Positions 1 to 32,846 of a stretch of DNA of 35,754 bases are shown piece by piece. The notes beneath the pieces were generated by a model that saw only the letters and a list, made by a program, of their open reading frames with translations, had not been told where the DNA came from and searched no databases. The DNA comes from Brotaphodocola catenula (GTDB lineage Bacteria; Bacillota; Clostridia; Lachnospirales; Lachnospiraceae). Where the stretch lies: contig JAJEPU010000033.1 of assembly GCA_020686985.1 (NCBI GenBank), positions 1 through 35,754 of the forward strand, read 5' to 3'. Position 1 is the first letter of the stretch. Each line of letters opens with the position of its first letter. The translations under genes and the position numbers were made by a program.

Positions 1-33
1 AAAAGCAATATGCAATTAAAATACAGTAACTAT

Positions 34-67
34 GTGGCTTTCAGCCACACTCACGGCTTTGCTGTGA
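34..67. other. Two adjacent stem-loops after the pglX stop
   Basis: The first stem-loop pairs TGTGGCT (33-39) with AGCCACA (43-49) around a 3-base loop. The second pairs CACGGC (52-57) with GCTGTG (61-66), with one G-T wobble, around TTT. They lie in the AT-rich sequence immediately downstream of the premature pglX stop. No clear run of T follows on the minus strand, so a Rho-independent terminator is not well supported. They could be recombination-site arms or a weak processing or termination structure. Bases 1-72 hold no other recognisable gene. Confidence 0.4.
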
Positions 68-72
68 ATAAT

Positions 73-1953
73 TCAGGCTAATTGAACAAAGGTGCTATTA
101 TAATTTGAGAAAAAGTCATTGCAGAACACAAAGCTGCTTGTCTGAACAACTTCCCCATTTATCTCATCAAATGCATGTGGTCCTAAATGTGCCAAATTTA
201 TCAGTTCTTTGTTTAATAGTTTATCGCGTAAATTCTCATAGCTTGCAAGAAACATCCATGCATGTTGTGTTATCATCGCTTGATAACCACTCACTCGCGT
301 CATCAAACCACATCGTTCAATAAAGACAGCAAAGAGATCTACTTTACTATCAGGATAATTTGCTTTAACAAAGTCATTCACTTTAGGGCTTAAATTACTT
401 ATAGCTGCATACGGTGGATTCGTAATGGTCACCCAATATTTCCGTGCCATCGTCTCACCAATGTCAACAAGCCGATTCAGCTGCTCGGCAGTATCTTCCA
501 CGCCCACGCTATCCATGCTGATCTGACCATCGGTATCCTCCGCTGCCACAAATCGGCGCAGCAGCTCCCAGTTGTAGCCCTCCACATTCAGGATAGAGCC
601 GTACTCCTTGGCATCGGTCAGGGTATCCAACAGACCTTCCAGCTGCATCTTGGCGGCGTTTTTCTCGATATCGTCCAACCCTGCGCCGAAATATTTCAGA
701 TGCGCACGGTTGATGCTGTTGCTCTCCTGAATGGCATAGACATGACAGGTGTTCTCGCCGTTTAAGATACGGCGATTGTACTGCCGTGCTTTCATCATCA
801 CGGCGAAGTACGCCAGCTGATAGGCACGGTCGTCAATGTCCAGACCGTAGATGTTGTGTTCAAGAATGCTCTTTGCCGCATCACGCTGGCTGTAACCGGC
901 ACTCTCGTAGATCTGCATCAGCACATCAAAGGCGTATACGAGGATATGGCCGGAACCCATGCAGGGGTCGATGAGCTTGATGTCTTCCGGGTTCAGGGCA
1001 GCGTACTCTTTACGAATTTCCGAGAGTTTTGCCTGCACCTCCGGCTCCTGTTGTGCTTCTTCCAGATAGTATTTCCAGTTTTCTTTCAGGCCACAGTCCG
1101 GGTGTCCTTCCACCCACAGACGGCCAAGGCTATTTTCCACCATGTAACGGACGATCCAGTCCGGGGTGAACAGCTGGGTCACGGCAGGAATTTCCTCTTT
1201 GGTAATCTTTCCGTTCTTGGCGAATGCAGCGGCTTTCGGTTCGGTATTGTAATACTGGTACAGCCAGCCGATGATCTCCACCTGACCACCGCGCTCGATG
1301 TTGAAGTCATCCTCCGGGATATCGTGAATCAAATGATAGACCACGCCATCCTGGTCAATAACGGACAAGCTGAGCAGCAGCTCGGTGTAGTTCTTTGTCT
1401 TTTCAAACAGAGCAGGCAGAATCTCGTTCAGGGCATTGCACTGTTTCAGGAACATGATGCGGAACACTTCGTCCAGCTTATTGTCCTGCTTCAGCTGGAA
1501 AATCTGAGCCTCTTCCTCCGCAGTAAAGGGCAGCTCTGCGTCAAACGGCGTTGTGACCAGATCCGGCTCCAGCTTTCCGCTCTCGGAAGAAAGCACCCTG
1601 ATATGGGAAGGCAGATAGTCATTGACCTCCATGAAACGGATGGCGATCAGGCGGTTAAACCATGTATAGGCAACCTCCTCGATCACATACTGATATGCGG
1701 TTTTGTAGTCGGTATCCTTTTCCTTCTGCTGGATGACCTCTATCAGCTTGTCACGCTGGCGCACGGCCTCACCGGAAATCGAATACGGTTCTGCGGTGCC
1801 GATATCGAAGAACTGAGTGCCGCCGAAGCTCTGCGGCAGCGGCTTGGCAATACCGTCCTCCGTAATACCGATCAGGCGGGCATCATAGCTAACATCTGCA
1901 ATCAGCTTATTCCGCGCCCAAATCGCAAAATTCTTTATGGCTGTCTTGTTCAT
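73..1953 (-). CDS. BREX type 1 adenine methyltransferase PglX (BrxX), ending early at 626 aa
   Basis: PglX is the N6-adenine DNA methyltransferase of BREX defence. It marks self DNA and is also needed to exclude phage. The SAM-binding motif DPCMGSGHIL lies near residue 328 and the catalytic TNPPYAA motif near residues 509-515. A good AGGAGG site precedes the ATG by 9 bases, and brxC ends 20 bases upstream. Family members are usually about 1150-1250 aa, so this frame covers only the N-terminal region and the methylase core; the C-terminal target-recognition half is missing. Base composition drops from about 57% GC (481-540) to about 34% (301-420), almost exactly at NPPY, which suggests a recombinant 3' part. 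Neither other frame after the stop continues the protein. It may be a truncated gene, one state of a switching gene, or half of a split gene. Function of this short form is uncertain. Confidence 0.85.
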   Translation of the reverse strand: MNKTAIKNFAIWARNKLIADVSYDARLIGITEDGIAKPLPQSFGGTQFFDIGTAEPYSISGEAVRQRDKLIEVIQQKEKDTDYKTAYQYVIEEVAYTWFNRLIAIRFMEVNDYLPSHIRVLSSESGKLEPDLVTTPFDAELPFTAEEEAQIFQLKQDNKLDEVFRIMFLKQCNALNEILPALFEKTKNYTELLLSLSVIDQDGVVYHLIHDIPEDDFNIERGGQVEIIGWLYQYYNTEPKAAAFAKNGKITKEEIPAVTQLFTPDWIVRYMVENSLGRLWVEGHPDCGLKENWKYYLEEAQQEPEVQAKLSEIRKEYAALNPEDIKLIDPCMGSGHILVYAFDVLMQIYESAGYSQRDAAKSILEHNIYGLDIDDRAYQLAYFAVMMKARQYNRRILNGENTCHVYAIQESNSINRAHLKYFGAGLDDIEKNAAKMQLEGLLDTLTDAKEYGSILNVEGYNWELLRRFVAAEDTDGQISMDSVGVEDTAEQLNRLVDIGETMARKYWVTITNPPYAAISNLSPKVNDFVKANYPDSKVDLFAVFIERCGLMTRVSGYQAMITQHAWMFLASYENLRDKLLNKELINLAHLGPHAFDEINGEVVQTSSFVFCNDFFSNYNSTFVQLA

Positions 1954-1973: not shown

Positions 1974-4900
1974 TTATAGTTCAATGTTGACGATTGTATC
2001 TTCGTCCATCTCTTTCAGCAGATTTTCACGCAATGCGGCAAGGTATTTATCAACGTCGTCCTTACTCTCCAACCGCCACGATGCAGTCTTGGCAACCGTC
2101 TTGATGGAAACATTCTTCGTGGTGCGCACCTTATATACCGGCTGCGGTTCTGCGACCTTTTCTGCCGGTTTCACGGTCTCGCCGCGTTTTTCCGCCTCTT
2201 CTTCCTGACGCTTGCGCTCTGCCTCGGCCTTTGCCGCTGCCTCCTGCACAAGACGGATATCTTCTGCGTTCATCTCGTTGAGCAGGCGCAGCTTCAGTGC
2301 CTCCGCCTTATCTGCATAGCTGCGCAGAGTGGAAACATTGTTGCAGTGCTCCGCACCGTCCATGATCTCCTTAAAGAGTTCCAGATAACGGTTGAACTTC
2401 GCATCCTTATAGGGCTTGGTGTTCAGCACTTCAAAGACACGGTTCCGATCCTGATTGATGGAATCTTTGACCGGCTCTGCCTGCTCTTCCAGAATGCGCA
2501 TATAGCAGTTCATAAACTTCTCGCGCAGCTCCGGCAGCTTCGGAATCTCCTTGTAGGGCTTCGGCATCCGGACAATGGTGCGCATCTTGGCCACCACGTC
2601 TTCCAGCTCTGCATCCACGATGTAGGTCTTGCTGTCCTCGTAGATATTCAGCATATCCAGCGCACGGGTGAAGATGGTCAGCTGCTCACTGCCAAAGAAA
2701 TCACGGATAGGCTCATAGTCCTCGCCAAAATCCATCAGATCGTCCTGCTCGTCAAATACGGTCTTAAAGAATTCCAGCGGTGCCTGAATCTGCACCAATG
2801 CGGAAAGCCGCTTCTTGCCCTTTTCCAGAATTTCTTTTCCGGGATAGGCGTAATTCTCATATTTCGGTTCCAGCCGCTCAATCTCAGTGATCCGATTCTC
2901 ACAATAGTGCTGGAAGTTCTTCATAATGGTATCTTCGTCATCGGCAGGCGGTGCCACCTTGAACAGCTCTTTCATCACGGTGCGAACGGCCTTTTTCTGG
3001 TTTTCCGGCACCCGGACGCGCACTTCCGTCAGCAGCTTATCCACGAACTGCTTCTTCGTGATGTAGCCGATGATTTCCTCTTCGGAACGGTTGTTCAGAT
3101 TGACGCTCTCCCCGTTGACCGTAAAGGACAGATCTCCACGCTTAAAGAGACGTGCCACCAGCCAATGGATGTCATCTTCCACAAAGCCATAGGGTGCTTT
3201 CATAAAGCGATCCTTGATGGTTTTCATAGAAGTTTTCATGTGCATCCGAGAGTTGCCTGCCACAAATTGCAACACATCATCCAGCGCGTGGACATTGGAT
3301 TCTCCGGTATCTCCCAGTGCCAGCGACAGCTGGTTGCTGGTCCTGAACATCTTCCGGATATCTGCTTCGCCCATCGCTGCGTCAATGTAGGACAGCTTAT
3401 GGTAAACCGTCTGCACCAGTCGGCCTATAGCCTCGTTGATGCGGCTGGTCACTTCCTTACCGGAGGTGTGCAGCACATCGCCATTGACATAGATGGTAGC
3501 CTCTTTCAGAGCTTCCGTCAGGTAAAGCTTGGCATTACCGTTGCGTTCCCGCATCTCTACGCGCTTTGCTTCCTTAATGGTCTCATACTTGGCAAGCTGC
3601 ACAGAAGTATTCTTGCGCAGGAACCGCTCAATTTTTAAGTATGCCCGCATTTCCGTCAGGAACGCATCATCATTCGGCAGAACCACAAGGACTTCCTTGC
3701 CCTGGCCGGAGAGCAGGCGCAGCGTACCATCATCGGTGCCGCCTTCATACCACGGGGTCAGCACACGGAGGCCGATATCGTAATTCTGGTTTGCCTTATA
3801 GGGGCGGTCATCCACTGTCTGATTGAAGGAGAACGCATACCGTCCGCCAAAGCTGGGGTACTGATACTTCTTGCTGGAGAAAATGTCCTCATAGATCATC
3901 TCCGCAATCTTCGTGATGACCTCCGGCATCTCCACATTTTCTTTTTCGATTTCGTTGTTAATTTCCTGTTCCTCATCGGTCAGGAATACATAGATGGAGC
4001 CATTCTTCTGGATCAGCATCTGGCGCATCAGCACTTTCAGTGCATCCTCCACCTGTGCCTTCAAAGAAATACGATCATCGTCAATGCTGGTAATCATCAG
4101 GCTGACGATGTTGTCCACGTTGGCTTCGATCTCCAGAACATATTTAATCAGGAAAAGGGTCTTCAACACATTGATCGCAAAGACATCTTTTTCCTTCTTT
4201 TCCGGGTTGATGTAGCTGTTGTCATAAGCGCGAATGATCACACTGCTGTGGCTGTGGTCGAGGAAGTTCTCCAATGCATCATAGAACCGATAGAACGGCA
4301 CGATTGCCCCCATCTCATCGTCCATCAGCTGCATGGCAGACTCTTTGAACAGAGCCAGCATGGAACGTTCACCCTCGGACAGGTGCTTGCCGGATGCACC
4401 GTGGGTACGGATACTGGTCAGCACGCTGGCAAGCAAATTAAACTGGTACGGAACAAAAGGATAAACCTCTGCAAAATCTTCTGCGTTGGCGTACAGTTTT
4501 TTCTCCACGCCGTCGTTGAAGACAATCAGATTTTTGATGATGGTTGCTTTCTGGTCATAAAGCAGACGCAGGCTCTGTGCTGCGGTCTCAGTCTTATCCA
4601 GAATACGCTTTTTGATAACAGCGTCCACATTGGCAGAGGACAAAGAAAGACGGGTATCGAAACGTCCCTGAATCTTGGAGAAGTCGTTACCTTTCACCTT
4701 GGTAATGGAGTCGATATCCTGCTGGCTCGTTACGATTACCCAAGCCTTACCCATGCATTCCTTGCCCAGTTCTTCCGTCACTGTCTGAAGGTTCAGCATC
4801 AGCTTGGAATCATCACCAATGTACTGACCGATCTCATCCACAAGGAAAACAACATGGTGGTTATTGCCTTTTTTATCAATGTAGGACTTTACACGCTTAG

Positions 4901-5627
4901 CAAAATCCTCAATGCTGATCTGGTAGCCCTCGGTTGCTTTCTCGCACCAGTTACGGGCAGCTGATTCGCTCATGAAATCCATGTCAGAAAGAACATCGAC
5001 AACAGAATCTTGAATGAAATCGAAGTCCTGACGAGAGCTTTCCCACGGATCGCCATACTCTTCTTCAAACTTTTCCTTAAACTCTTCAAAACGACCTTCT
5101 TCGGAAAGCCTACGCTCCAGGTCAGCAAGGTGAGGCATGGAACCGCAGAAGCCCTGCATCTCATTGAAGACCTTCAGGAATACGTTCACAATGGCATCTT
5201 TGTTTTCCTTGCCATTAGAATCACTTTTGGAATCAATGTTGAAAAGAATTACGTCCGATGGAGTGTTTGCTGCCAGCTGCATATCTGCCAGCACCATCTG
5301 ATTGGTAATCTTCTGATCTTCGATAAAGTAGTCGATGGCATGTTTGTCTCCGACCTGTTTATTCTGAAGCAGATAGGACAGGATTTTCAGGAAATGAGAT
5401 TTACCACTTCCAAAGAAGCCGGAAATCCAGACACCCATTTTCGGTGTGGTTCCCTGAATACCTTTTTTATATGCTGCAAAGAAATCCGCAAAATGACGCT
5501 GAAGCTCACGGGTCACAACATACTCTTCCAGCTCCTGCGCTACATTTGTCTCTTCACCCTGACCGACAATGATAACACCCTGTATCTCACGGTCAATTTT
5601 CTTTCGGAACATGTCCTTGATCTGCAT
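1974..5627 (-). CDS. BREX ATPase BrxC (PglY-like), 1217 aa
   Basis: BrxC is the large P-loop ATPase of BREX, a core component thought to act with BrxB and PglX/PglZ on incoming DNA. A Walker A motif, GFFGSGKSHFLK, sits near residues 64-75. A Walker B-like segment, VVFLVDEIGQ, lies near residues 256-265. Length and the opening MQIKDMFRKKIDR fit the family. I place the start at the second ATG because it has GGAGG eight bases ahead; the longer frame would add only five residues. Near the C-terminus there is a charged, Ala/Glu/Lys-rich stretch that probably forms a coiled coil (around residues 1120-1170), then a short conserved tail. The gene follows brxB by about 18 bases and precedes pglX by 20, so all are likely cotranscribed. 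Confidence 0.92.
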   Translation of the reverse strand: MQIKDMFRKKIDREIQGVIIVGQGEETNVAQELEEYVVTRELQRHFADFFAAYKKGIQGTTPKMGVWISGFFGSGKSHFLKILSYLLQNKQVGDKHAIDYFIEDQKITNQMVLADMQLAANTPSDVILFNIDSKSDSNGKENKDAIVNVFLKVFNEMQGFCGSMPHLADLERRLSEEGRFEEFKEKFEEEYGDPWESSRQDFDFIQDSVVDVLSDMDFMSESAARNWCEKATEGYQISIEDFAKRVKSYIDKKGNNHHVVFLVDEIGQYIGDDSKLMLNLQTVTEELGKECMGKAWVIVTSQQDIDSITKVKGNDFSKIQGRFDTRLSLSSANVDAVIKKRILDKTETAAQSLRLLYDQKATIIKNLIVFNDGVEKKLYANAEDFAEVYPFVPYQFNLLASVLTSIRTHGASGKHLSEGERSMLALFKESAMQLMDDEMGAIVPFYRFYDALENFLDHSHSSVIIRAYDNSYINPEKKEKDVFAINVLKTLFLIKYVLEIEANVDNIVSLMITSIDDDRISLKAQVEDALKVLMRQMLIQKNGSIYVFLTDEEQEINNEIEKENVEMPEVITKIAEMIYEDIFSSKKYQYPSFGGRYAFSFNQTVDDRPYKANQNYDIGLRVLTPWYEGGTDDGTLRLLSGQGKEVLVVLPNDDAFLTEMRAYLKIERFLRKNTSVQLAKYETIKEAKRVEMRERNGNAKLYLTEALKEATIYVNGDVLHTSGKEVTSRINEAIGRLVQTVYHKLSYIDAAMGEADIRKMFRTSNQLSLALGDTGESNVHALDDVLQFVAGNSRMHMKTSMKTIKDRFMKAPYGFVEDDIHWLVARLFKRGDLSFTVNGESVNLNNRSEEEIIGYITKKQFVDKLLTEVRVRVPENQKKAVRTVMKELFKVAPPADDEDTIMKNFQHYCENRITEIERLEPKYENYAYPGKEILEKGKKRLSALVQIQAPLEFFKTVFDEQDDLMDFGEDYEPIRDFFGSEQLTIFTRALDMLNIYEDSKTYIVDAELEDVVAKMRTIVRMPKPYKEIPKLPELREKFMNCYMRILEEQAEPVKDSINQDRNRVFEVLNTKPYKDAKFNRYLELFKEIMDGAEHCNNVSTLRSYADKAEALKLRLLNEMNAEDIRLVQEAAAKAEAERKRQEEEAEKRGETVKPAEKVAEPQPVYKVRTTKNVSIKTVAKTASWRLESKDDVDKYLAALRENLLKEMDEDTIVNIEL

Positions 5628-5645
5628 AACAGTTTCCTCCATCCA

Positions 5646-6221
5646 TTACTTTACCAGTCGGAATGCCCGGTAATAGTTATCGTCTTTAATCTCATTGAAC
5701 AGAATCAGCTCCTGCTCATTATAGGTTCCCGGAAAGAACATCACGACCGGGCAGCGCACAAATGCCTGATGCAAGTTGTTAAGCACCTTGTGGGAGCGCA
5801 AAATCGGATAGCACTTGCCGATACCGGTCAGGAACACGACTGCATTCTCCGGCGTATGTTCTTTGATATATTGCACGATCAGGCTGTCATCGTCATTTAC
5901 CTTCATGGAGTTGGTCACTGCCTTGACGATACGCTCGATCCCTCGCTTTTTTTCAAAGTCATAGCACTTTTCCATGAAGTTTTTCTTTTCCAAAAAGTCA
6001 ATGATGATATCATACAGGTCAAAGACCACAAGCTCAAAATCATCATCGCCCCGGTCATTCTTATTTTTCAGATACTCTACACGCTCCCGAACTTCCAGTT
6101 CCTTTTCCGGTGGATAATCAAACACCCAATAGTTGACCTCATTTGCGCGGCCTGTTCCTTTTCGGAAAGATGGCTTATGGATTGCAAGCTCCATCTCGTC
6201 CAGTCTTTGGCTTAAATCCAT
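5646..6221 (-). CDS. BREX protein BrxB (DUF1788), 191 aa
   Basis: This is a small BREX core protein of the DUF1788 family. Its biochemical role is not well defined; it is always found beside brxC. The sequence starts MDLSQRLDEME and contains the family-like stretch VFLTGIGKCYPILRSH near residues 128-143, followed by a VVMFFPGTY strand typical of a Rossmann-like or ATPase-associated fold. Length (about 190-200 aa) fits. The ATG lies one base after the brxA TGA, so translation is probably coupled. No membrane segment or signal peptide is visible. The identification rests on family resemblance plus position between brxA and brxC, which is the standard BREX type 1 order. Confidence 0.9.
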   Translation of the reverse strand: MDLSQRLDEMELAIHKPSFRKGTGRANEVNYWVFDYPPEKELEVRERVEYLKNKNDRGDDDFELVVFDLYDIIIDFLEKKNFMEKCYDFEKKRGIERIVKAVTNSMKVNDDDSLIVQYIKEHTPENAVVFLTGIGKCYPILRSHKVLNNLHQAFVRCPVVMFFPGTYNEQELILFNEIKDDNYYRAFRLVK

Positions 6222-6222
6222 T

Positions 6223-6831
6223 TCATCTTACCCCCGTCAGTGTTTTTACCATGATGCCAAGATCATGGTCATAAAGCCAATGCTCAAATGCAATATCAAG
6301 AATTGGCTTCAGTATTTTTCTTGTGCTGTTTGCCCGGTTGCTTTCTAAAAGCCCCGCTTCATAAAGCTGCGTTTTATAGCAGGAACCGAGGCGGCGCAGC
6401 GTATAGTCTTGAAGAGAAGCCACTTTCTCACTCTGTTCCTGCTTATTTTTGAAAAATATCCGGATATCTGCATCCGTCAGCTCATCGGAACCAAGAATCA
6501 TTTTTTCCCGCACTACTTCATACACAAAATCAAAGAACAGCGTGTCATGCAAAAGAGCCGCAGTCAGCACAAATAGTTTTTGTGTAGCAAGATCACTGCT
6601 CAAAAAGATTGGATAAAAGCTTTCATCTAATGTCTTGATACGGGCTGTTACGGTAGAATAAATCTGCTGCGCTCGTAGTTTTGTCGGTGCACCATAGATG
6701 TTTGTCTCTTCATTCAACTTTTTAATATCTGCAAAGCTCTTACCCTCGCTCAAAAGTTGCACGGTTTTCCGAAATTCCATGAACCAGAACGAAAATTTCA
6801 CTGCTCCGGCACTATACGGTTTTCTTTCCAT
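6223..6831 (-). CDS. BREX protein BrxA (DUF1819), 202 aa
   Basis: BrxA is the first structural gene of most type 1 BREX loci and encodes a small, mostly helical DNA-binding protein (DUF1819). The family-like N-terminus KPYSAGAVKFSFWFMEFRKT is present, as is the later helical part with LRRLGSCYKTQLYEAGLL. The frame is open up to 6891, but the ATG at 6831 is the best start: it has GGAGAG seven bases ahead and gives the usual family length of about 200 aa. This start overlaps the end of the HTH gene by 20 bases, which suggests coupled translation. The stop is one base before brxB. Confidence 0.9.
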   Translation of the reverse strand: MERKPYSAGAVKFSFWFMEFRKTVQLLSEGKSFADIKKLNEETNIYGAPTKLRAQQIYSTVTARIKTLDESFYPIFLSSDLATQKLFVLTAALLHDTLFFDFVYEVVREKMILGSDELTDADIRIFFKNKQEQSEKVASLQDYTLRRLGSCYKTQLYEAGLLESNRANSTRKILKPILDIAFEHWLYDHDLGIMVKTLTGVR

Positions 6832-7039
6832 CTTCGTTCTCTCCATTTCCGGATTTTGTTTTAATGTATTTGCCGCTTTTGATTCTGGCATCCTTCGGCT
6901 TTTCGGCGTTAATAGGAATGACCCACTGATGGCCTAAACGCTCGGCACCATCAATTCGCCCTTCCGTGCATAATGTCTGTACTCTCCTTGTGCAGATGCC
7001 CCATTTTTCAGAAGCCTGCTTAATCGTCATGAAATCCAT
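6812..7039 (-). CDS. Small helix-turn-helix protein heading the BREX operon, 75 aa
   Basis: This short protein has an excisionase/MerR-like winged helix at residues 4-45: TIKQASEKWGI, then TRRVQTLCTEGRI, then a wing ending in GHQWVIPINAEKP. A charged Lys/Glu-rich tail follows. The ATG has AGAGG about six bases ahead and lies roughly 50 bases downstream of a good promoter. Its stop is inside the start of brxA, so it is the first gene of the BREX transcript. Many BREX loci carry a transcriptional regulator (BrxR, a larger WYL protein); this one is unrelated in size but could have a similar regulatory role. That role is inference from fold and position. It could also be an orphan excisionase-type protein. 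Confidence 0.75.
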   Translation of the reverse strand: MDFMTIKQASEKWGICTRRVQTLCTEGRIDGAERLGHQWVIPINAEKPKDARIKSGKYIKTKSGNGENEDGKKTV

Positions 7040-9633: not shown

Positions 9634-9965
9634 CATCGAATACCAGAAAGCCTCTTAAGGATCAGCTTCTGCATCTCCCAGAGTTCATCCAGCCGCCTCT
9701 GCAAATCCCGAATATCCTCCGCATAGATGCTTCCGGTTTCATTGGCTCGTTTTGCGTACTGATTCAGGTTATTGCTGCATCGGCGAAGAAGGGTGGATAC
9801 CTGCGCCACATCTGACAAATCAAGATTTACGCAGTACCCGTCCATCGCCATTTTTCTCATATAGGCACCGGTATTCCGAATCCCCAATTCCTTCTGCTTT
9901 TCACGAATCCTCGCCAGCTCTTCCGGGTTTACCCGGACATTGATCCAGTGTTCCCGAACACTCAT
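9633..9965 (-). CDS. MobC-like relaxosome accessory protein, 110 aa
   Basis: MobC proteins bind oriT as dimers and help the relaxase open and nick the strand. The N-terminus REHWINVRVNPEELARI forms the ribbon-helix-helix-like opening of the family. The conserved block DLSDVAQVSTLLRRCSNNLN with NQYAKRANETG (around residues 53-80) is the typical MobC signature. A heptad-like helix, DLQRRLDELWEMQKLILKRL, ends the protein and may allow dimerisation. The ATG overlaps the stop of the giant helicase gene (ATGA), with GGAGG upstream, so translation is coupled. Presence of MobC fits the MOBP-type relaxase encoded at 7362-8828. Confidence 0.9.
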   Translation of the reverse strand: MSVREHWINVRVNPEELARIREKQKELGIRNTGAYMRKMAMDGYCVNLDLSDVAQVSTLLRRCSNNLNQYAKRANETGSIYAEDIRDLQRRLDELWEMQKLILKRLSGIR

Positions 9966-12900
9966 AGTGCCACCTCCTCATCATCTCGATGTGTCATCGG
10001 CGGAATGCGCCCTACACGGTCACGCAGCTCTGCCAGGACAGACGGCTTTTCCGTTGTTTTCTCACGGTCAGGGTCATCCTTTCCACGGTCATCCATATTC
10101 AAAAGTGCGTCCAGTTCTGCCAGTCTTACACTCTTTTCTGCCAGTTCTGCCTCCTGTGGAAACGGCTTTCCAAGCTCTGCCTGCGCCGCTTCCTGTTGGC
10201 TCCTAAGATTGTCCAGCTGCTGTTCCGCTTTTTCCAGCCTTGCAGGAATCCCAGCAAGAGCATTGTCCAGACGCTGGATATTGCCCGCAGCACTGGTGCC
10301 GATGGGTACCCGGTGGGTCATCTCGCCTTTCAGCAACACCTGATACTCTTTCTGGAAGCTGTCAAATGCCAGTTCCATCTTGAAACCACGGTAACTGCCA
10401 AGCGGCACCGGCTCCAGACTCTGATTGGCTTTACAGATTGCGAGGATTGCTTCACCGGCCTCGGCTTTTTCAGTAAATCGCGCGCCATTCACCTCCATGC
10501 CGCAGAACCCCTCTTCCGGCAGTGGATGTGCCGCCACCGTCCGGATATCCGACTGAAAGCCCTTGATGAACCCCTGCGTTTTCTCAATCTCCGCAGGAAA
10601 ATATTTCATCAGCTTATCCTCCAATCGGTACTGCTGACTCTGATGGTCTGCCTTCAATACTTTCAGCCTTGCAACATCTACATCCAAGTCCATTTTTTCC
10701 TTGATCTGCGGGTCTCCTGCACAAAGTGCCTTGATCTCCGCATAGGAAAGTGCCTGCTCATCCACATCATCACAGGAACGAACCGGAGATTTGCTGGTCA
10801 TGATCTGACTGATAAACTTCTGCTTATTCTCCAGTGTCTGATAGAGGTAGGCATCAAAGGTTCCTTCCGTCACATACTGATAAACCTGCACCTCTTTATT
10901 TCGGTTTCCCTGACGAATGATACGGCCATTTCGCTGGGTCATGTCCGCAGGCCGCCAGCCCACATCCAGATGATGCACGGCCACCAGCCTGTCCTGCACG
11001 TTCGTGCCTGCGCCCATCTTCTGTGTCGAACCTAACAACACCCGAACCTGCCCGGTACGGACTTTGGCAAACAAATCCTTCTTTTTTGCCTCGGTATCCG
11101 CATCATGGATAAATGCGATTTCTTCTTCCGGTACACCGGACTGGATGAGTTTAGCACGGATATCCTCATACACGTTGAAGGTTCCATCGTTCTTCGGCGT
11201 GCTGAGGTCGCAGAACAGCAGCTGGGTCAGCTTCTCCGACTGTCCTTCCTCATAAATCCGAAGCACATTCCGCACACAGGCGTTGAGCTTGCTGTTGGGG
11301 TCATCCGGCAGAAGCGGGTTCATCAGCCGCTGATCCAATCCCAGCTTTCTGCCATCCGATGTGATTTTCAGCATGTTATCGACCGATGGGTCTACCACAC
11401 CGGAATGCACAGCCGCCGCCCGTTCCGAAAGCTCCGCCACCATCGCCTGCTGATGCTCCGAAGGCTGCACTACCACAGTTTCAAATTTTGCCTCCGGCAC
11501 CGGCAGATGCAGCTGATCAGAAGTCTTGATATCCGCCACTTCCTTGAACATATTCATCAGCTCCGGCAGGTTGAAGAACTTTGCAAATCTTGTTCTTGCC
11601 CGGTATCCGGTTCCCTCCGGTGCCAGCTCAATGGCTGTGGTAGTCTCACCAAAGGTAGAAGCCCAGCTGTCGAAATGGGTCAGCCCTTTCTGCTGCAATG
11701 TGCCGTACTGGAGATACCGCATCATGGTGTAAAGCTCCGTCATGCTGTTGCTGACCGGGGTGCCGGTCGCAAAAATGATGCCGCGCCCGCCTGTCAACTC
11801 GTCCATATACTGGCACTTCATAAACATATCCGAAGATTTTTGCGCTTCCGATGTGGACAAACCTGCGACATTGCGCATTTTTGTGTAGAGGAACAGGTTC
11901 TTAAACGCGTGTGCCTCGTCTACAAACAGCCGGTCTACGCCCAGCTGCTCAAAGGTAATCACATCGTCCTTTCGGTCGGTTGCCCGGAGTTTCTCCAATC
12001 TCGCCTCCAATCCTTTCCGGGTCTTTTCCATCTGTTTAATGGAAAAACGTTCGCCATTCTGGGATTTCATCTCAGCAATGGCATTTTCGATTTCATCAAT
12101 CTGTGCAGTCAAAATCCGCTCCTGCCGTTCTGCGGACACCGGGATTTTCTCAAACTGGGAATGCCCGATGATAACCGCATCGTAATCTCCAGTGGCAATT
12201 CGTGCGCAGAACTTCTTTCTGCGGGCGGTTTCAAAGTCCTTTTTACTTGCCACCAACAGTTTTGCACTCGGATACAAGCGCTGGAACTCGTTTGCCCACT
12301 GAAGGGTCAAATGATTCGGAACGACAAACATGGATTTCTGGCACAGTCCCAGCCGTTTTGCCTCCATAGCAGAAGCTGCCATCTCGAAGGTCTTGCCGGC
12401 ACCTACCTCGTGGGCCAGCAGCGTATTGCCGCCGTACAGTACATGAGCAATGGCATTCTGCTGATGTTCCCGCAGCCGGATTTCCGGATTCATACCGCCA
12501 AAGCGGATATGGGAGCCATCGTACTCACGGGGACGAGTACTGTTGAACAACTCATTATACTTTTCCACAAGTTCCGCACGACGATAAGGGTCTTTCCACA
12601 CCCAGTTCTGGAACGCATCCTTAATGGCCTGCTGTTTCTGCTGGGCGAGAGTGGTCTCCTTTTTGTTCAGCACCCGCTTCTGCTTGCCGTCTGCATCCTC
12701 CACCATATCGTAGATACGGATATCCCGCAGATTCAGCGTATCCTCCAGAATCCGGTAGGCGTTGGCTCGGCTGGTGCCGTAGGTCATATAGGCATGGACA
12801 TCATTCCGGCTCGGTGTACTCTTGCCGGTGATCTGCCATTCTGCCGTCATGGGAGAGAATTTCACTTCAATGTTTCGGCGCAGGTAAAACGGCGGTTCAA

Positions 12901-15900
12901 AGGTTTCTTCCATAAACTGCTGGATATAATCCCGATTGACCCATGTGGCACCAAGGCGCACATCAATCTCCGACGCATCCAGGTCTTTCGGCTGTGCTTT
13001 CTTCAAATATTCCGTGTTCACCGCAAAGGCAGAGTCCGAAGCCACAGCCAGTTCTGCTACACGGAGCTTTTCACGGACATTGCCGGACAGATATTCATCA
13101 GCCGTCACCCATCCGATTTCCTCGCCGCCCTGCGTCATCGGGTCTTTGAAAATGACACCATGCAGTTCCTGCTGGATTTTTTCATATTCTCCCGGCGTTC
13201 CTAAAAGCTCCGACATATAGGGCAAATCCACTCTGCCGTGCTCTCCGATAGAGATTGCCAGAGCTTCAGCCGGAGTATCTACGCTGGTAACAGCCCGTTC
13301 CGGTCGAATCGTCCGTTTGGTGAACATATCCGCCTTAGATTCCAGCCTGCCGTTTTCATCTACATTTTCCAGAGAGCAAAGCAGATAATAAGACGAATCT
13401 TCCGAAAAAGCCTGCGCATTTGCACGGGAGTTGATAAGCCCGTATTGATCGGCGAATCGGTCATAGGCTACATTCAGTTCCCGCTGTTTCTGGGCAATCG
13501 CGTCCTCCGGGTAATCGTTCAGCTGGTAGTCAATCAGTTCCTGCACAATGGTGCGAAGCTCCACCATGCCCTTAATTCTGCCGGTGGCTGTCGCAGAAAG
13601 GTCAGCCTTTCGCATGATGCTGTTCTCACGGAAGTAGACATCCCCATCCACCACTGCATAGGAGAAATTCTTTACATTGGGGTCTGCCGGAATGGTTTCG
13701 CCCTGCAAGGACAGTTCTTCCTCCGGTGCCAGCTCCTGCGCTTCATAGTGCCCGCCGATGTGCTGCACAGCCTCATGCAGCTGGTCTCCCAGATCCGCAC
13801 CTGGAATCGGAATGACCGTACATTCTTCCTTGCCGTACTGGGTACTCTCCGTTGTAATCTCACCCAGCACCATTTCCGGGTGGTCAACAAAGTAACTGTT
13901 AAGGGTAATACCCTCCGATGTCAGCCCCAGATGCACCCAATCCGGTTCGATATCAATGGGATGGTCTCTCTTTTGCAGGAAAATGATATCCGACACTACA
14001 TCTGTACCGGCATTGGCACGGAATGCGTTATTGGGAAGTCGGATGGCTCCCAGCAGTTCTGCCCGCTGCGCCAGATACTTTCGTGCATCTGGATTCTTGG
14101 AATCCATCGTATAGCGGCTGGTAACAAAGGCCACGATGCCACCGGGACGAACCTGATCCAATGCCTTGGCAAAGAAATAGTTGTGGATAGAAAAACCGAG
14201 CTTATCATAGGGTTTATCGCTGACACGGTAGTTGCCAAATGGCACATTGCCCACAGCCAGATCATAGAAATCGCGGCGGTCGGTGGTTTCAAAACCTGCC
14301 ACCTTGATTTCTGCCTGCGGATACAGCTTCTGCGCAATACGCCCGGTGATGGAATCCAGTTCCACACCATACAGTCTGCTTTCCAGCATGGAATCCGGCA
14401 GCATACCGAAGAAGTTGCCGACACCCATCGACGGTTCCAGAATATTGCCTTTCTCAAATCCCATACCGTCCAACGCTTCATAGATTGCACGGATCACGGT
14501 AGGACTGGTGTAGTGTGCATTCAGAGTCGAAGCCCTGGCTGCGGCATATTCTTCTTCCGTAAGAGCTGCTTTCAGTTCCTTATATTCGCCTGTCCAGGCA
14601 GCTTTCTCTGCGTCAAAGGCATCTGCCAGCCCGCCCCAGCCGACATAATTGGCCAGTGTTTCCTGTTCTTCCGGTGTCGCATCCCTGTGCTGGTTTTCTA
14701 AGGTTTTCAGCGTGTAGATAGCATCCATGTTGGCACGGAATTTCTGTTTGGGACTGCCTTCGCCAAGATGAAAGCTGTTGATACGATAGTTTTCTGCATG
14801 AGTGTTCTCCGGCTCTGTCTCTGGAATTACCGATTTTTGTTCCTCACTTTGCTTTTCTCTGCCGGGATTCAGATCAACCACCAGGTTATGCAGGTGAACA
14901 TTTTCCTCATGCTCCAAAAGTCTTGCCAGATTCTCCTTGCTTTCCGAGCGGAAGATCGGATACACGGAATCCGGGTCCCGAAGCTCCACATCAAAAAGCC
15001 CGACTTTTTCAATCGTAAATGCCTTTCCGTCCAGATACAGCGTATCGCCGACACGATAATCTGGCTGCACCGGAGCTGCCGGTTCTGGCTGCACAGTTGC
15101 AGGCTCTTTTTCAGCCTCCATATTCCTGCCGCGAATCTCCTGCAACGCCTCTGACGCACTCACATAATCGGCAAATGTCTGCACTTTTCCGTCCGAATAT
15201 CCGTAATACTCTTCTTTGACATAATCCCAGATGGCAAACGCATCTTTAGAATCCGGGAAGTTCTCGCCGGTCATCGTGACTACAAATCGTTCATTCGGTG
15301 CATAGCCTGACTCTCTGGCAAGTTCTCTGGCATGTTCCTGCATTTCCAGCACCAGAGGATCTGTCTCTGCGTGAGCCGATTCCGGTGCTTCTTCAGATTC
15401 CACATCCGGGAATGGAATGTCCTGCTGCAAATTCTGCTTGCTCTGTTCAACATAGAGCCAGTCTTTTGCTTCTCGTTCCTGAACTTTTTCAATCAGTTGC
15501 TGGCGGTAAGTCTCTGCCTCCCATTCGCTGGTAAACTCTTCGCTGACACCATCCGGCTCTACATGAATGCCGTCCTGAATATCATCCCAAACCGCATAGC
15601 CATCGTCTGTCTCCATCACGGTAAATCGCTGGGGTGCTGCCAACTCGCTCCGGGCATAGACATCCGCAGCCGTATTCAGCATATTGTCCACATGCTCATT
15701 TCCGGTATCATAGCGTTCCGGTGGCGTTGGCGGAAACACATGGGCGGCAGTCGGCATAGGAAGCGGTGCACCATATTCCTGCTCCAGCTTTCGATACTCT
15801 TCCATTTCCAGCGCGGTAAGATATTGACCATTTTCCACAAGCCGGTCTAACCGCTTATCCACCGCCGACCATGTGAGGCGCGCCTCCCGGTCATGGCCAT

Positions 15901-17350
15901 AATTGCGAAGCAGAATACCTTTTCCGTCATAATCCGCAAAACCGCGACTGCCATCCATAAAGGTATAGCTGTGACCACCGATACCGTATTCCGCTTTCAG
16001 AAATGCAGCTCGTTCTTTTGTGTCCCCTTGCTGCTGATACAGCGCATAAATCCGGATTTTTCCGCCTTCAAAATTGGAGCCTGTCCGTAGCATCCGGTCG
16101 ATTTCATCCTCAGAAATGACAAAAGCGGAGGGCTTTTCGCTCTCCGCTTCTCTGGCTGCATTTTCTGCCGCCGCATCAATTTTCTGAATCTGCTCTGCTT
16201 CGGACTGAAACAGGCTCATAAAATTTAACTGTTGATAAGTTCCGTCAGAATAACTTCCTCTGCCTGCGCTTTCAACATGTTCATGTGCTGCACCCAGGCC
16301 ATCTGGTTCGATTTCTTGTCCGGTGCCGGATTCGCTTTCAAAAGCTCCGCCATCATCTGCTCCATCCGTGCGGTCGCGGTCTCCTGAATCTCCCACAGAT
16401 GCGGGTACAGTTTCTCGGTCAGGATCAGGTGATTGTACAGCAGCGTGTTGTTCTCCTGCAGGAACGCTCTGCGCATTCTCCCGTACTTGCCCAGGGGCTT
16501 CTGTTCCTGCACCGACAACTGGATGTCCGGAATCAGGTAATCGCCGTTCTTCGTGTAATTCAGCTCCATCATAGTTTTGGCTCCTTTCTGCCTGCTTATC
16601 TCTTTCATAGGTTCGGATCGTGCGTTCAATTTCCCGGAAGATCTGGCTGGACATTTCGCTGACCGCAGTTCCCAGCACATTGGCAGCAGCCTGCGTATTA
16701 AAATCAAAGATGTCCAGAAAATCCTCGTGTTCAAAATAGTCATCTGCATTGCCCACCGTCCGGGTAAAGACGGAATATGCGATGCTGACAGCGGCAGCTC
16801 TCTTAAAGGAAGCTCCGATGTTGAGTTCATCATATCCTTCCAGATAGGAATCTGCAACGATGTCACTAATCTGCCTGCGGTTTTCCTCCCAGTAATCCCT
16901 TGCAAGGCGTTCTGCCGCTTCCATGATATGATTCTCCAGAGACCCGGCACCGGCAGGAACATCAAACGCTGCATCCAGTGCCCGAATGATCGGCTGCTCA
17001 TGCTCCGCGTTCATTTTCCAGAGCTGTACCGGGCGGGAATTCTTCCGTTCTCCGGTATCTGCCACATCAAATACATACCGCAATTTCGGCTGCTCCCCGC
17101 GCATATCCAAAAGAGCAATGCCCTTGGAGCCACGCTTTACATAGCGATTCATCCGGTCATTCCAGAGATCGTACTCTGCACAGGCCGTTGCTTCTGGTCT
17201 CTGCTTATAGATCATCAGCTGCTCCGCAAAGGGATACTTATAAAGCCGCGCGGATGTGGTCAGAAACGCTGTCCACTGTTCTTTGCTGCCAGTGATCTGT
17301 GCCGCAGCTTCCTGTGCCATCTGCATATAATAAGCCGTTTTTGTCATCAT
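9962..17350 (-). CDS. Giant DNA methylase-SNF2 helicase protein of Tn1549-type ICEs, 2462 aa
   Basis: This is the largest gene of the element. Domains in order: an ArdC-like N-terminal region (residues about 1-110, with YPFAEQLMIYKQRPEATACA); a low-complexity Asp/Glu/Gly linker; two related small modules with the pattern YAVWDD / FAIWDY (about 585-740) like the YodL/LPD domains of mobile-element polyproteins; an N6-methylase-like domain with LEPSMGVGNFFG (about 970) and GNVPFGNY (about 1033); and a superfamily 2 helicase with HEVGAGKTFEMA (about 1642), LFVDEAHAFKN (about 1805) and QRNGRIIRQGNRNK (about 2137). A coiled coil ends it. Methylase motif IV reads NVPF rather than NPPF/Y, so activity may be reduced. 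GGAGG precedes two adjacent ATG codons. Likely roles are protection or processing of transferred DNA; none is proven here. Confidence 0.88.
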   Translation of the reverse strand: MMTKTAYYMQMAQEAAAQITGSKEQWTAFLTTSARLYKYPFAEQLMIYKQRPEATACAEYDLWNDRMNRYVKRGSKGIALLDMRGEQPKLRYVFDVADTGERKNSRPVQLWKMNAEHEQPIIRALDAAFDVPAGAGSLENHIMEAAERLARDYWEENRRQISDIVADSYLEGYDELNIGASFKRAAAVSIAYSVFTRTVGNADDYFEHEDFLDIFDFNTQAAANVLGTAVSEMSSQIFREIERTIRTYERDKQAERSQNYDGAELHEERRLPDSGHPVVGAGTEAPGQVRENAQSVPAGEQHAAVQSPDPDRETVPASVGDSGDRDRTDGADDGGAFESESGTGQEIEPDGLGAAHEHVESAGRGSYSDGTYQQLNFMSLFQSEAEQIQKIDAAAENAAREAESEKPSAFVISEDEIDRMLRTGSNFEGGKIRIYALYQQQGDTKERAAFLKAEYGIGGHSYTFMDGSRGFADYDGKGILLRNYGHDREARLTWSAVDKRLDRLVENGQYLTALEMEEYRKLEQEYGAPLPMPTAAHVFPPTPPERYDTGNEHVDNMLNTAADVYARSELAAPQRFTVMETDDGYAVWDDIQDGIHVEPDGVSEEFTSEWEAETYRQQLIEKVQEREAKDWLYVEQSKQNLQQDIPFPDVESEEAPESAHAETDPLVLEMQEHARELARESGYAPNERFVVTMTGENFPDSKDAFAIWDYVKEEYYGYSDGKVQTFADYVSASEALQEIRGRNMEAEKEPATVQPEPAAPVQPDYRVGDTLYLDGKAFTIEKVGLFDVELRDPDSVYPIFRSESKENLARLLEHEENVHLHNLVVDLNPGREKQSEEQKSVIPETEPENTHAENYRINSFHLGEGSPKQKFRANMDAIYTLKTLENQHRDATPEEQETLANYVGWGGLADAFDAEKAAWTGEYKELKAALTEEEYAAARASTLNAHYTSPTVIRAIYEALDGMGFEKGNILEPSMGVGNFFGMLPDSMLESRLYGVELDSITGRIAQKLYPQAEIKVAGFETTDRRDFYDLAVGNVPFGNYRVSDKPYDKLGFSIHNYFFAKALDQVRPGGIVAFVTSRYTMDSKNPDARKYLAQRAELLGAIRLPNNAFRANAGTDVVSDIIFLQKRDHPIDIEPDWVHLGLTSEGITLNSYFVDHPEMVLGEITTESTQYGKEECTVIPIPGADLGDQLHEAVQHIGGHYEAQELAPEEELSLQGETIPADPNVKNFSYAVVDGDVYFRENSIMRKADLSATATGRIKGMVELRTIVQELIDYQLNDYPEDAIAQKQRELNVAYDRFADQYGLINSRANAQAFSEDSSYYLLCSLENVDENGRLESKADMFTKRTIRPERAVTSVDTPAEALAISIGEHGRVDLPYMSELLGTPGEYEKIQQELHGVIFKDPMTQGGEEIGWVTADEYLSGNVREKLRVAELAVASDSAFAVNTEYLKKAQPKDLDASEIDVRLGATWVNRDYIQQFMEETFEPPFYLRRNIEVKFSPMTAEWQITGKSTPSRNDVHAYMTYGTSRANAYRILEDTLNLRDIRIYDMVEDADGKQKRVLNKKETTLAQQKQQAIKDAFQNWVWKDPYRRAELVEKYNELFNSTRPREYDGSHIRFGGMNPEIRLREHQQNAIAHVLYGGNTLLAHEVGAGKTFEMAASAMEAKRLGLCQKSMFVVPNHLTLQWANEFQRLYPSAKLLVASKKDFETARRKKFCARIATGDYDAVIIGHSQFEKIPVSAERQERILTAQIDEIENAIAEMKSQNGERFSIKQMEKTRKGLEARLEKLRATDRKDDVITFEQLGVDRLFVDEAHAFKNLFLYTKMRNVAGLSTSEAQKSSDMFMKCQYMDELTGGRGIIFATGTPVSNSMTELYTMMRYLQYGTLQQKGLTHFDSWASTFGETTTAIELAPEGTGYRARTRFAKFFNLPELMNMFKEVADIKTSDQLHLPVPEAKFETVVVQPSEHQQAMVAELSERAAAVHSGVVDPSVDNMLKITSDGRKLGLDQRLMNPLLPDDPNSKLNACVRNVLRIYEEGQSEKLTQLLFCDLSTPKNDGTFNVYEDIRAKLIQSGVPEEEIAFIHDADTEAKKKDLFAKVRTGQVRVLLGSTQKMGAGTNVQDRLVAVHHLDVGWRPADMTQRNGRIIRQGNRNKEVQVYQYVTEGTFDAYLYQTLENKQKFISQIMTSKSPVRSCDDVDEQALSYAEIKALCAGDPQIKEKMDLDVDVARLKVLKADHQSQQYRLEDKLMKYFPAEIEKTQGFIKGFQSDIRTVAAHPLPEEGFCGMEVNGARFTEKAEAGEAILAICKANQSLEPVPLGSYRGFKMELAFDSFQKEYQVLLKGEMTHRVPIGTSAAGNIQRLDNALAGIPARLEKAEQQLDNLRSQQEAAQAELGKPFPQEAELAEKSVRLAELDALLNMDDRGKDDPDREKTTEKPSVLAELRDRVGRIPPMTHRDDEEVAL

Positions 17351-31159: not shown

Positions 31160-31191
31160 GTCCCGGCGGGACAGGTCAGGCAGTGACCTGT
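31160..31191. other. Two stem-loops over the recombinase stop codon
   Basis: GTCCC and GGGAC (31160-31172) pair around GGC, and ACAGGTCA (31171-31178) pairs perfectly with TGACCTGT (31184-31191). The second spans the recombinase stop codon. No T run follows on the minus strand, so simple termination is unlikely; mRNA protection or a recombination accessory site are possible. Confidence 0.4.
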
Positions 31192-32846
31192 TCCACCTCC
31201 GGGATGGGTTTGAGATTAAAATGAATTTCGATAGAAATGTGTCTTGTTTTATCTTCGTCAATGCGTTCATGCACGACGATTTCTTTGATTAAGCGGTTAA
31301 GGGTGGCTGCGTCCAGCTCTGTGATGTTGGCATATTCCTGAATGGCTTCCACCCATTGTTTTGCGTCATTGGCAAGCTGGACTTCATCAGACAGCCGCTT
31401 TCTGCCCTCGGACACTTTTGCTTTAAGCTCCGTCTGCTCGGTCTGTGTCTTTTCCAGCATGGTGTTGAAATTCTGCTCACTGATACGCCCTGCAATCATA
31501 TCCTCATAAAGCCGCATGACCATTTTGTCCAGAACCTCAATCCGTTCCTCGTCCCTTGTAAGGGAGCGTTCCATTGCTTCCCGCTGTTCCCGCTGCTCTG
31601 CTTCACAGGTATTGGTCAGGCGGTCGGCAACCGCTTCCCCGTCCATCAGGGCAGCTCTGGCACATTCCCGGATTTTCCGCAGCACATGGCTGTAAAGGGT
31701 GTCATAGTCAATCCGGTGCTGGGTGCAGTGGTTCTTTCCAAAGGCGTTGTAGGTCTTGCAGGAATAAATCCGCTGGGGATGTTTTGCGTTTGTGTAGCGT
31801 ACCGTCAGCGACTTCCCACACTCGCCGCATTTTAACAATCCGGCAAACAGGCTGATTTCATCGGTCTGCCCCGGACGCTGGCGGGATTTCAGCTTGTTCT
31901 GCACAATGTCAAAGCTCATGCGGTCAATCAGCGGTTCATGCTGTCCCTCCACCACAATCCAGTCCTCCGGCTTCTTTTCCCCAATTGTGCCGATTTTGAA
32001 ACGGTAGTCTTTTTTCTGGGAAGCAATCGCACCGGTGTAGACGGGATTCATCAAAAGGTCTTTGATAACGGAGAAGTCCCACATATACCGCCCGTTTTCC
32101 GGGTCTTTCTTTTCCCATTTGGTTCGGGTGTTGCGAAGCCCCCGTTCCCGGTTCCACCATGTGGGGCAGGGGATTTTTTCTTCCTCCAGCCGTCTGCGGA
32201 TATAGTTCGGACCATGACCGTTCAGGGCATATCCGAAAATCAGCCGCACAATCGGGGCGGTTTCCTCGTCAATGAGCAGATGGTTTTTGTCCTCCGGGTC
32301 TTTCCGATACCCAAACGGGGCAAGACACCCGGTAAACTGTCCTTTCTGCGCTTTCAGAAGATAAGAGGAATGGACTTTCTTGGAAATATCCTTGCTGTAC
32401 ATCTCATTCAGGATATTCTTGAACGGGGCGATGTCGTTGTTATCCCGCAGGGTGTCGATACCGTCATTCATGGCAATATAGCGGACACCGTTTCTTGGGA
32501 AAAAGTCCTCAATCAAATGCCCGGTTTGCAGATAGTTCCGCCCCAGTCGGCTGAGGTCTTTCGTGATGACAAGGTTGATTTGCCTGCGCTCAATAGCTCT
32601 CAACATCCTCTGTAAATCAGGACGCTCCATATTAAGACCTGTGAAGCCATCGTCCTGATAGACTGCCACAACCTCCCATCCCTGCTTTTCGCAGTATTTT
32701 TCCAGCATATCCCGCTGGTTGGCGATACTGGCACTTTCGCCTTGCAGGTCATCGTCCTTTGACAGCCTGCAATAGACCGCCGCACGATAGCCCCCGGCAA
32801 GTGCCGAACCGATTGTTCTGTATTCCATTTCGTTCATCATAGCCAT
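31176..32846 (-). CDS. Large serine recombinase (TnpX-like, with DUF4368), 556 aa
   Basis: This enzyme integrates and excises the inner element. The catalytic domain spans residues about 17-160, with the nucleophilic Ser in AVYCRLSKDD and the conserved LSRLGRNYLQTGHLIE helix. The recombinase domain follows (APFGYRKDPEDKNHLLIDEE onward). A zinc ribbon is present in LKCGECGKSLTVRYTNAKH with YSCKTY (about 338-366). A coiled coil (about 410-500) and a DUF4368-like end close the protein. The ATG begins directly after the stop of the upstream small gene, so translation is coupled. Length and layout match TnpX/Tn4451-type transposases. It lies next to the maff2 junction, as expected for an element-end recombinase. 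Confidence 0.93.
   Translation of the reverse strand: MAMMNEMEYRTIGSALAGGYRAAVYCRLSKDDDLQGESASIANQRDMLEKYCEKQGWEVVAVYQDDGFTGLNMERPDLQRMLRAIERRQINLVITKDLSRLGRNYLQTGHLIEDFFPRNGVRYIAMNDGIDTLRDNNDIAPFKNILNEMYSKDISKKVHSSYLLKAQKGQFTGCLAPFGYRKDPEDKNHLLIDEETAPIVRLIFGYALNGHGPNYIRRRLEEEKIPCPTWWNRERGLRNTRTKWEKKDPENGRYMWDFSVIKDLLMNPVYTGAIASQKKDYRFKIGTIGEKKPEDWIVVEGQHEPLIDRMSFDIVQNKLKSRQRPGQTDEISLFAGLLKCGECGKSLTVRYTNAKHPQRIYSCKTYNAFGKNHCTQHRIDYDTLYSHVLRKIRECARAALMDGEAVADRLTNTCEAEQREQREAMERSLTRDEERIEVLDKMVMRLYEDMIAGRISEQNFNTMLEKTQTEQTELKAKVSEGRKRLSDEVQLANDAKQWVEAIQEYANITELDAATLNRLIKEIVVHERIDEDKTRHISIEIHFNLKPIPEVEQVTA

Follow-up and report, generated by a model that had tools for sequence, protein, structure and literature searches.

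The window analysed here, a stretch of 35,754 nucleotides from Brotaphodocola catenula, is the whole of contig C39 in an assembly of 112 contigs (98.8% complete), and its base 1 is a contig end. Close to that end, on the minus strand, the open reading frame 73..1953 encodes a protein of 626 aa that matches positions 1-602 of 1174 of the PADLOC PglX profile PDLC02521 (E 2.4e-239) and model positions 1-626 of 1210 of the NCBIfam family BREX_1_MTaseX. According to these profile matches, the N-terminal half of PglX alone is encoded in the window, in agreement with a preliminary description of this DNA, which had noted that pglX stops at 626 codons and that the C-terminal half of the protein is absent from the frame. 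Upstream of the gene, at higher coordinates of the window, are brxC, brxB and brxA, and the coordinates of these and the other features discussed below are collected in Table 1.

Table 1. Features of the pglX end of the window and of the adjoining BREX genes.
Feature	Positions	Strand	Basis
Insertion sequence end, probable IS1380 family, body unassembled	1..77		91-99% identity to ends of 14 other contigs
14-bp terminal inverted repeat; inverted at far junction on C32	64..77		Sequence comparison
5-bp target-site duplication; repeated beside far junction on C32	78..82		5-mer comparison of element ends
5' part of pglX, BREX-1 adenine methyltransferase	73..1953	minus	ORF translation and profile matches
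AT-rich island start in pglX, from NPPY on; continues ~245 codons on C32	83..420	minus	GC and GC3 profiles
NPPY codons, residues 512-515	409..420	minus	Translation
brxC	1974..5642	minus	PDLC02471 1-1190 of 1190; BrxC domains
brxB	5646..6221	minus	Profile and domain matches
brxA	6223..6891	minus	Profile and domain matches

On the brxA side, positions 7362-34680 of the window hold genes for a relaxase, NikA/MobC, a topoisomerase, a TraG-like ATPase, PrgI, TrbL_2 and a large serine recombinase. Since these conjugation-type genes lie on that side, the BREX operon is probably located in an integrative mobile element. A single frame of 2462 aa, with SNF2/helicase domains and methylase-like matches, occupies positions 9962-17350.

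When the own genome was searched with the profile, the rest of PglX (profile positions 601-1166) was located at 43461-45158 of another contig, C32, where this 3' piece lies 73 bases from the contig end and is open over 588 aa. Instead of an intact PglX of about 1200 aa, the genome thus encodes two separate pieces, one with 625 residues and the other with 588. The fit of the two pieces was evaluated with separate BLASTP comparisons, in which they abutted without gap or overlap on the intact PglX of G021, a genome of the same genus (1159 aa; N piece at 5-583, C piece at 584-1159), and of G048, from the same order (1216 aa; 7-628 and 629-1215). Both of these loci also contain brxC and pglZ, and that of G021 additionally brxL, while no NCBIfam model matched its candidate brxB. 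In five of the seven complete relatives, the alignment of one or both pieces ended short of the junction. Beyond the 3' piece, C32 continues with pglZ and brxL, so that every gene of a type 1 BREX set is found on the two contigs taken together, with a single interruption, brxA, brxB, brxC and 5' pglX being in the window and 3' pglX, pglZ and brxL on C32. We infer that C39 and C32 are physically joined through one element.

Other genes accompany the BREX operon on C32. Between 3' pglX and pglZ there is an accessory insertion in the operon, formed by a DUF3990 gene and then small frames (L026 16294-17390), and right after brxL (L026 9356-11600) there is a CBASS-like pair, consisting of a SLATT_4 two-TM effector and a SMODS nucleotide cyclase, with a RelA/SpoT-domain gene next to it. 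A resistance operon on the same contig was also considered, but Pfam assigned the two genes in question, located after phospholipase-D genes, to response regulators and histidine kinases, respectively; they adjoin FUSC_2 ("fusaric acid resistance protein-like") and choloylglycine-hydrolase genes. No antibiotic-resistance family was found among the Pfam-scanned ORFs, which were part of those in the last 19232 of the 45231 bases of C32.

The complete relatives were obtained from a search that gave PglX matches in 11 of 61 genomes, leaving aside the own genome, G024 (cut by a contig end) and G013 and G019 (frame fragments of 81 and 104 aa). Extra partial matches in G012, one in a 360-aa frame and another, of 27%, in a 515-aa frame, were also excluded. 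In the seven relatives pglX is an open frame of 1159-1239 aa, and the intact homologues of about 626 aa considered in the preliminary description were not among them.

The sequence that interrupts the gene could be recognized from its recurrence at contig ends. Bases 1-82 of the window are repeated, with 91-99% identity, on 14 other contigs of the own genome, in all cases 52 bases or less from the contig end. The terminal sequence of C32 recurs at 12 other places, all of them within 2 bases of a contig end, and corresponds to the opposite end of the same kind of element as on C39. Altogether, 28 ends of the element (15 left and 13 right) are present on 27 contigs. The element is thus a multi-copy insertion sequence, probably active in recent times, and is behind many contig breaks. 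Its high copy number caused the assembly to break within it, which is why the window stops at this point, and because the contig stops inside a repeated element the end of the window has the appearance of a truncated gene.

Following the gene, the pglX sequence gives way at base 77 to the terminal repeat, within which the TGA of the truncated gene is located. The frame is made up of 625 pglX codons, one mixed codon and the TGA from the inserted element, so that the end of the ORF at codon 626 is due to the in-frame stop supplied by the terminal repeat. Both pglX junctions show the 14-bp inverted repeats and an identical 5-bp flank, and of the two sequence variants in which the element exists, both junctions carry the same one. 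The missing half is therefore behind the far end of a transposable element with a target-site duplication, and the proposal that the truncation came from an exchanged copy, through recombination of partial copies, was not supported, nor was an inverted copy.

The 5-mer at the pglX junctions was found on C39 only among the 15 left ends, and on C32 only among the 13 right ends. As a control, 12 of the 14 other left ends had their 5-mer in common with at least one right end, and those of C80 and C77 matched none. Identical 5-mers were present in 27 of the 195 left/right pairings, and three 5-mers, that of the pglX junction included, were found once per side. The other target sites of the element are mostly AT-rich as well, and because of this composition 5-mer sharing is weak evidence for most end pairs. 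An exact-pattern scan for the element end gave no matches in a genome-contig collection from which the own or very near genomes are possibly absent. The arrangement of the junctions also bears on a possible artefact of assembly or binning, by which C39 and C32 would not be neighbours and the ends of pglX would have been wrongly joined to element ends. Such an error is scarcely credible: while 27 of the 112 contigs end in the element and none spans it, the break in pglX falls on one and the same residue in C39 and C32, with the same 5-bp flank, and these contigs carry opposite ends of the same variant of the element and complementary halves of a BREX operon.

Since the body of the element is absent from the assembly, as expected for a collapsed repeat, its family was judged from relatives; a search of the own genome with the PF13701 profile gave no matches. 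The 82-base element end was matched in 5 of 99 genomes, including the own one. The copy in the congener G015 shows 88% identity over 77 bp to the left end of the window, and the same identity to the left end on contig C34, which is longer and aligns over 129 bp. This element of G015 measures 1.2 kb, shares the terminal repeat and is flanked by a 5-bp duplication, the resemblance being at the left end only, with just the 16-bp terminal repeat in common at the right end. It contains two transposase fragments with NF033539 scores of 137 and 34 bits, and the copy in G012 reaches 57 bits, all three values being below the curated cut-off of 180 bits. Members of the IS1380 family are about 1.7 kb long, have short terminal inverted repeats starting with CCT and generate target duplications of 4-5 bp. 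A CCT-starting terminal repeat, of 14 bp, and a 5-bp flanking duplication are also present here, although, unlike those members, the element is known from its ends alone, without a transposase. Judging by its relatives and by these traits, the inserted element probably belongs to the IS1380 family.

Phase variation by recombination, in which the pglX seen here would be just one of the arrangements of a locus that switches by means of a recombinase and another partial pglX, has precedents in the literature: pglX is the altered gene both here and in the phase-variable loci of L. rhamnosus (PMC7513527). The composition break analysed below, which falls on a conserved motif, could also speak for it. 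Unlike in those loci, neither a second pglX nor an adjoining recombinase was found here, and the break in the gene is accounted for by a transposon end and a target duplication, which makes this explanation extremely improbable. In the own genome, three regions were matched by the PglX profile, corresponding to the two halves of the same gene and to a 605-aa methylase-like frame on contig C38 that covers profile positions 444-575 only. The C half of PglX gave a single match, to itself, and no second pglX was found in the assembly by either profile or protein searches. Regarding the elements of a switch that the preliminary description had suggested looking for, the sole 3' half sits behind the other end of the insertion sequence on C32, and positions 1-2100 of the window contain just two inverted repeats, short and imperfect (12 and 15 nt). 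Among the ORFs scanned beside either half, a set that left out the small frames between 3' pglX and pglZ, there is no site-specific recombinase, the adjoining genes being brxC on one side and the DUF3990 frame on the other. The serine recombinase of the window (31176-32846) is 29 kb from pglX.

Short PglX frames do exist in the order. The part of the AT-rich island (see below) on the C side gave matches in 38 of 392 genomes of the order, the own one included, and seven loci were inspected, namely the six with two matches per contig plus one best match. Short frames, six in total and of 815-892 aa, were present in five of these loci, in four of them alongside a full PglX frame of 1203-1247 aa; another locus had two long frames (1178 and 1128 aa) and another a single PglX. 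In all six short frames (loci L120, L121, L122, L123 and L125), the end comes at a conserved SW.F..HPL motif, immediately beyond the target-recognition domain. A role as switch cassettes was considered and dropped, as the downstream neighbour tested in four of the five loci was in no case a recombinase, but Abi_C, a PglZ domain or a frame with no Pfam match. They may be separate genes for a stable short second PglX, and no such frame was found in the stretches searched at the own locus. As for the possibility that the PglX of B. catenula is short by nature, at about 626 aa, its probability is practically negligible: short frames occur in the same order, but with the larger sizes just mentioned, and the frame of G024, which at 608 aa is near 626, starts as early as base 3 of its contig and runs off the contig end. 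Besides the fact that the seven complete relatives are open over their full length, the stop lies within the repeat of the element and the remaining gene is present and open.

A fall in GC content coinciding with the NPPY codons had been described previously, and it was confirmed, with values of 0.583 at positions 481-600 and 0.342 at 301-420. Third-position GC, in steps of 30 codons, is 0.53-0.77 for codons 1-510 and 0.20-0.30 for codons 511-600; on C32 it stays at 0.10-0.43 until around 245 codons past the junction and is then 0.50-0.80 to the end of the gene. The composition break starts some 114 codons before the insertion and reverses only after that stretch of C32, and the break and the truncation are separate features. 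The insertion site lies inside an AT-rich island of about 360 codons, which takes in the final third or so of the methylase domain, together with the target-recognition domain. A comparable dip exists in five of the seven complete relatives (G021, G012, G048, G005 and G010), beginning later than NPPY in G021 and G048, and in G037 and G026 third-position GC is low almost throughout. When the relatives were compared with each other (21 pairs), identities were 38-63% ahead of the island, 26-44% within it and 44-65% past its end. When the own PglX was compared with the relatives in steps of 40 residues, identity was already low at residues 401-520, went up again at residues 521-600 in three of the seven, G037, G021 and G048 (50-70%), and then fell near the junction. 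Conservation with respect to the relatives is therefore unchanged at NPPY, where only base composition shifts, and the idea of this motif as a crossover point was not sustained. These sequence data fit a fast-evolving or exchanged specificity region. Outside the own genome, the best match to the C-side part of the island in the 392 genomes of the order had 44% identity over nearly the full length, there was one weak match of 62% over 26 residues, and no donor for the island was found among these genomes.

All these data give us high confidence that a single insertion sequence, probably an IS1380-family member, has split a normal full-length pglX within a type 1 BREX operon, and that BREX is most likely off. 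An intact pglX, in an operon with the order brxA-brxB-brxC-pglX-pglZ-brxL, would have been hit by a single insertion, with the in-frame TGA of the terminal repeat ending the ORF at codon 626; the truncated product would retain its N-terminal portion and the greater part of the methylase domain, without the target-recognition and C-terminal domains, and the fall in GC at NPPY marks the start of an AT-rich variable region that spans the insertion and ends on C32. The terms "split gene" and "off state" used in the preliminary description were thus appropriate for the outcome.

The activity of a working split PglX (626 + 610 aa), or a reversible off-switch based on precise excision, with altered or conditional BREX activity as a result, is very unlikely. 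The C piece can be read as an open 610-aa frame with its ATG within the element end, and neither of the pieces has internal stops, but no promoter-like site was detected in the last 172 bases of C32, element end included, and the cut parts most of the methylase from target recognition. What the scan of this contig end did reveal was a single terminator-like palindrome, located within the pglX piece and recorded on both strands. With respect to a reversible switch, precise excision is atypical of IS elements.

The consequences of the interruption can be considered in the light of the proteins of known structure. Residues 67-622 of the N piece align to 55-619 of E. coli BrxX (8ZEK, also 9EWZ), and residues 1-571 of the C piece to 623-1208 of Salmonella PglX (8C45). 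These proteins belong to operons with the same genes as here, and unlike them the PglX of B. catenula is interrupted, near their residue 621-622. In the work on E. coli BrxX, the hinge is located at 638-675 and the target-recognition domain at 651-837, which situates the cut around 30 residues ahead of the latter (PMC11842806). The same work indicates that defence and methylation by type 1 BREX need site binding by BrxX/PglX, and that deletion of brxX is not toxic (PMC11842806), so that a silent BREX, tolerated by the cell, is likely. The insertion would most likely silence both BREX methylation and defence.

Frequent pglX disruptions have been interpreted as a possible sign of phase variation (PMC9122589), and a literature search covering titles and the beginning of abstracts revealed no published report of an insertion sequence in pglX. 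With pglX disruptions already in print, the gene split described here is an ordinary instance. It shows that a plain insertion sequence can cause a pglX disruption and adds one more natural interruption to those known, while removing a false lead, i.e. truncation of pglX by gene exchange, and illustrating that a contig which stops within a repeat can mimic a truncated gene. The AT-rich, poorly conserved middle part of pglX, present in five of the seven relatives, constitutes a lead for studying changes in target specificity.
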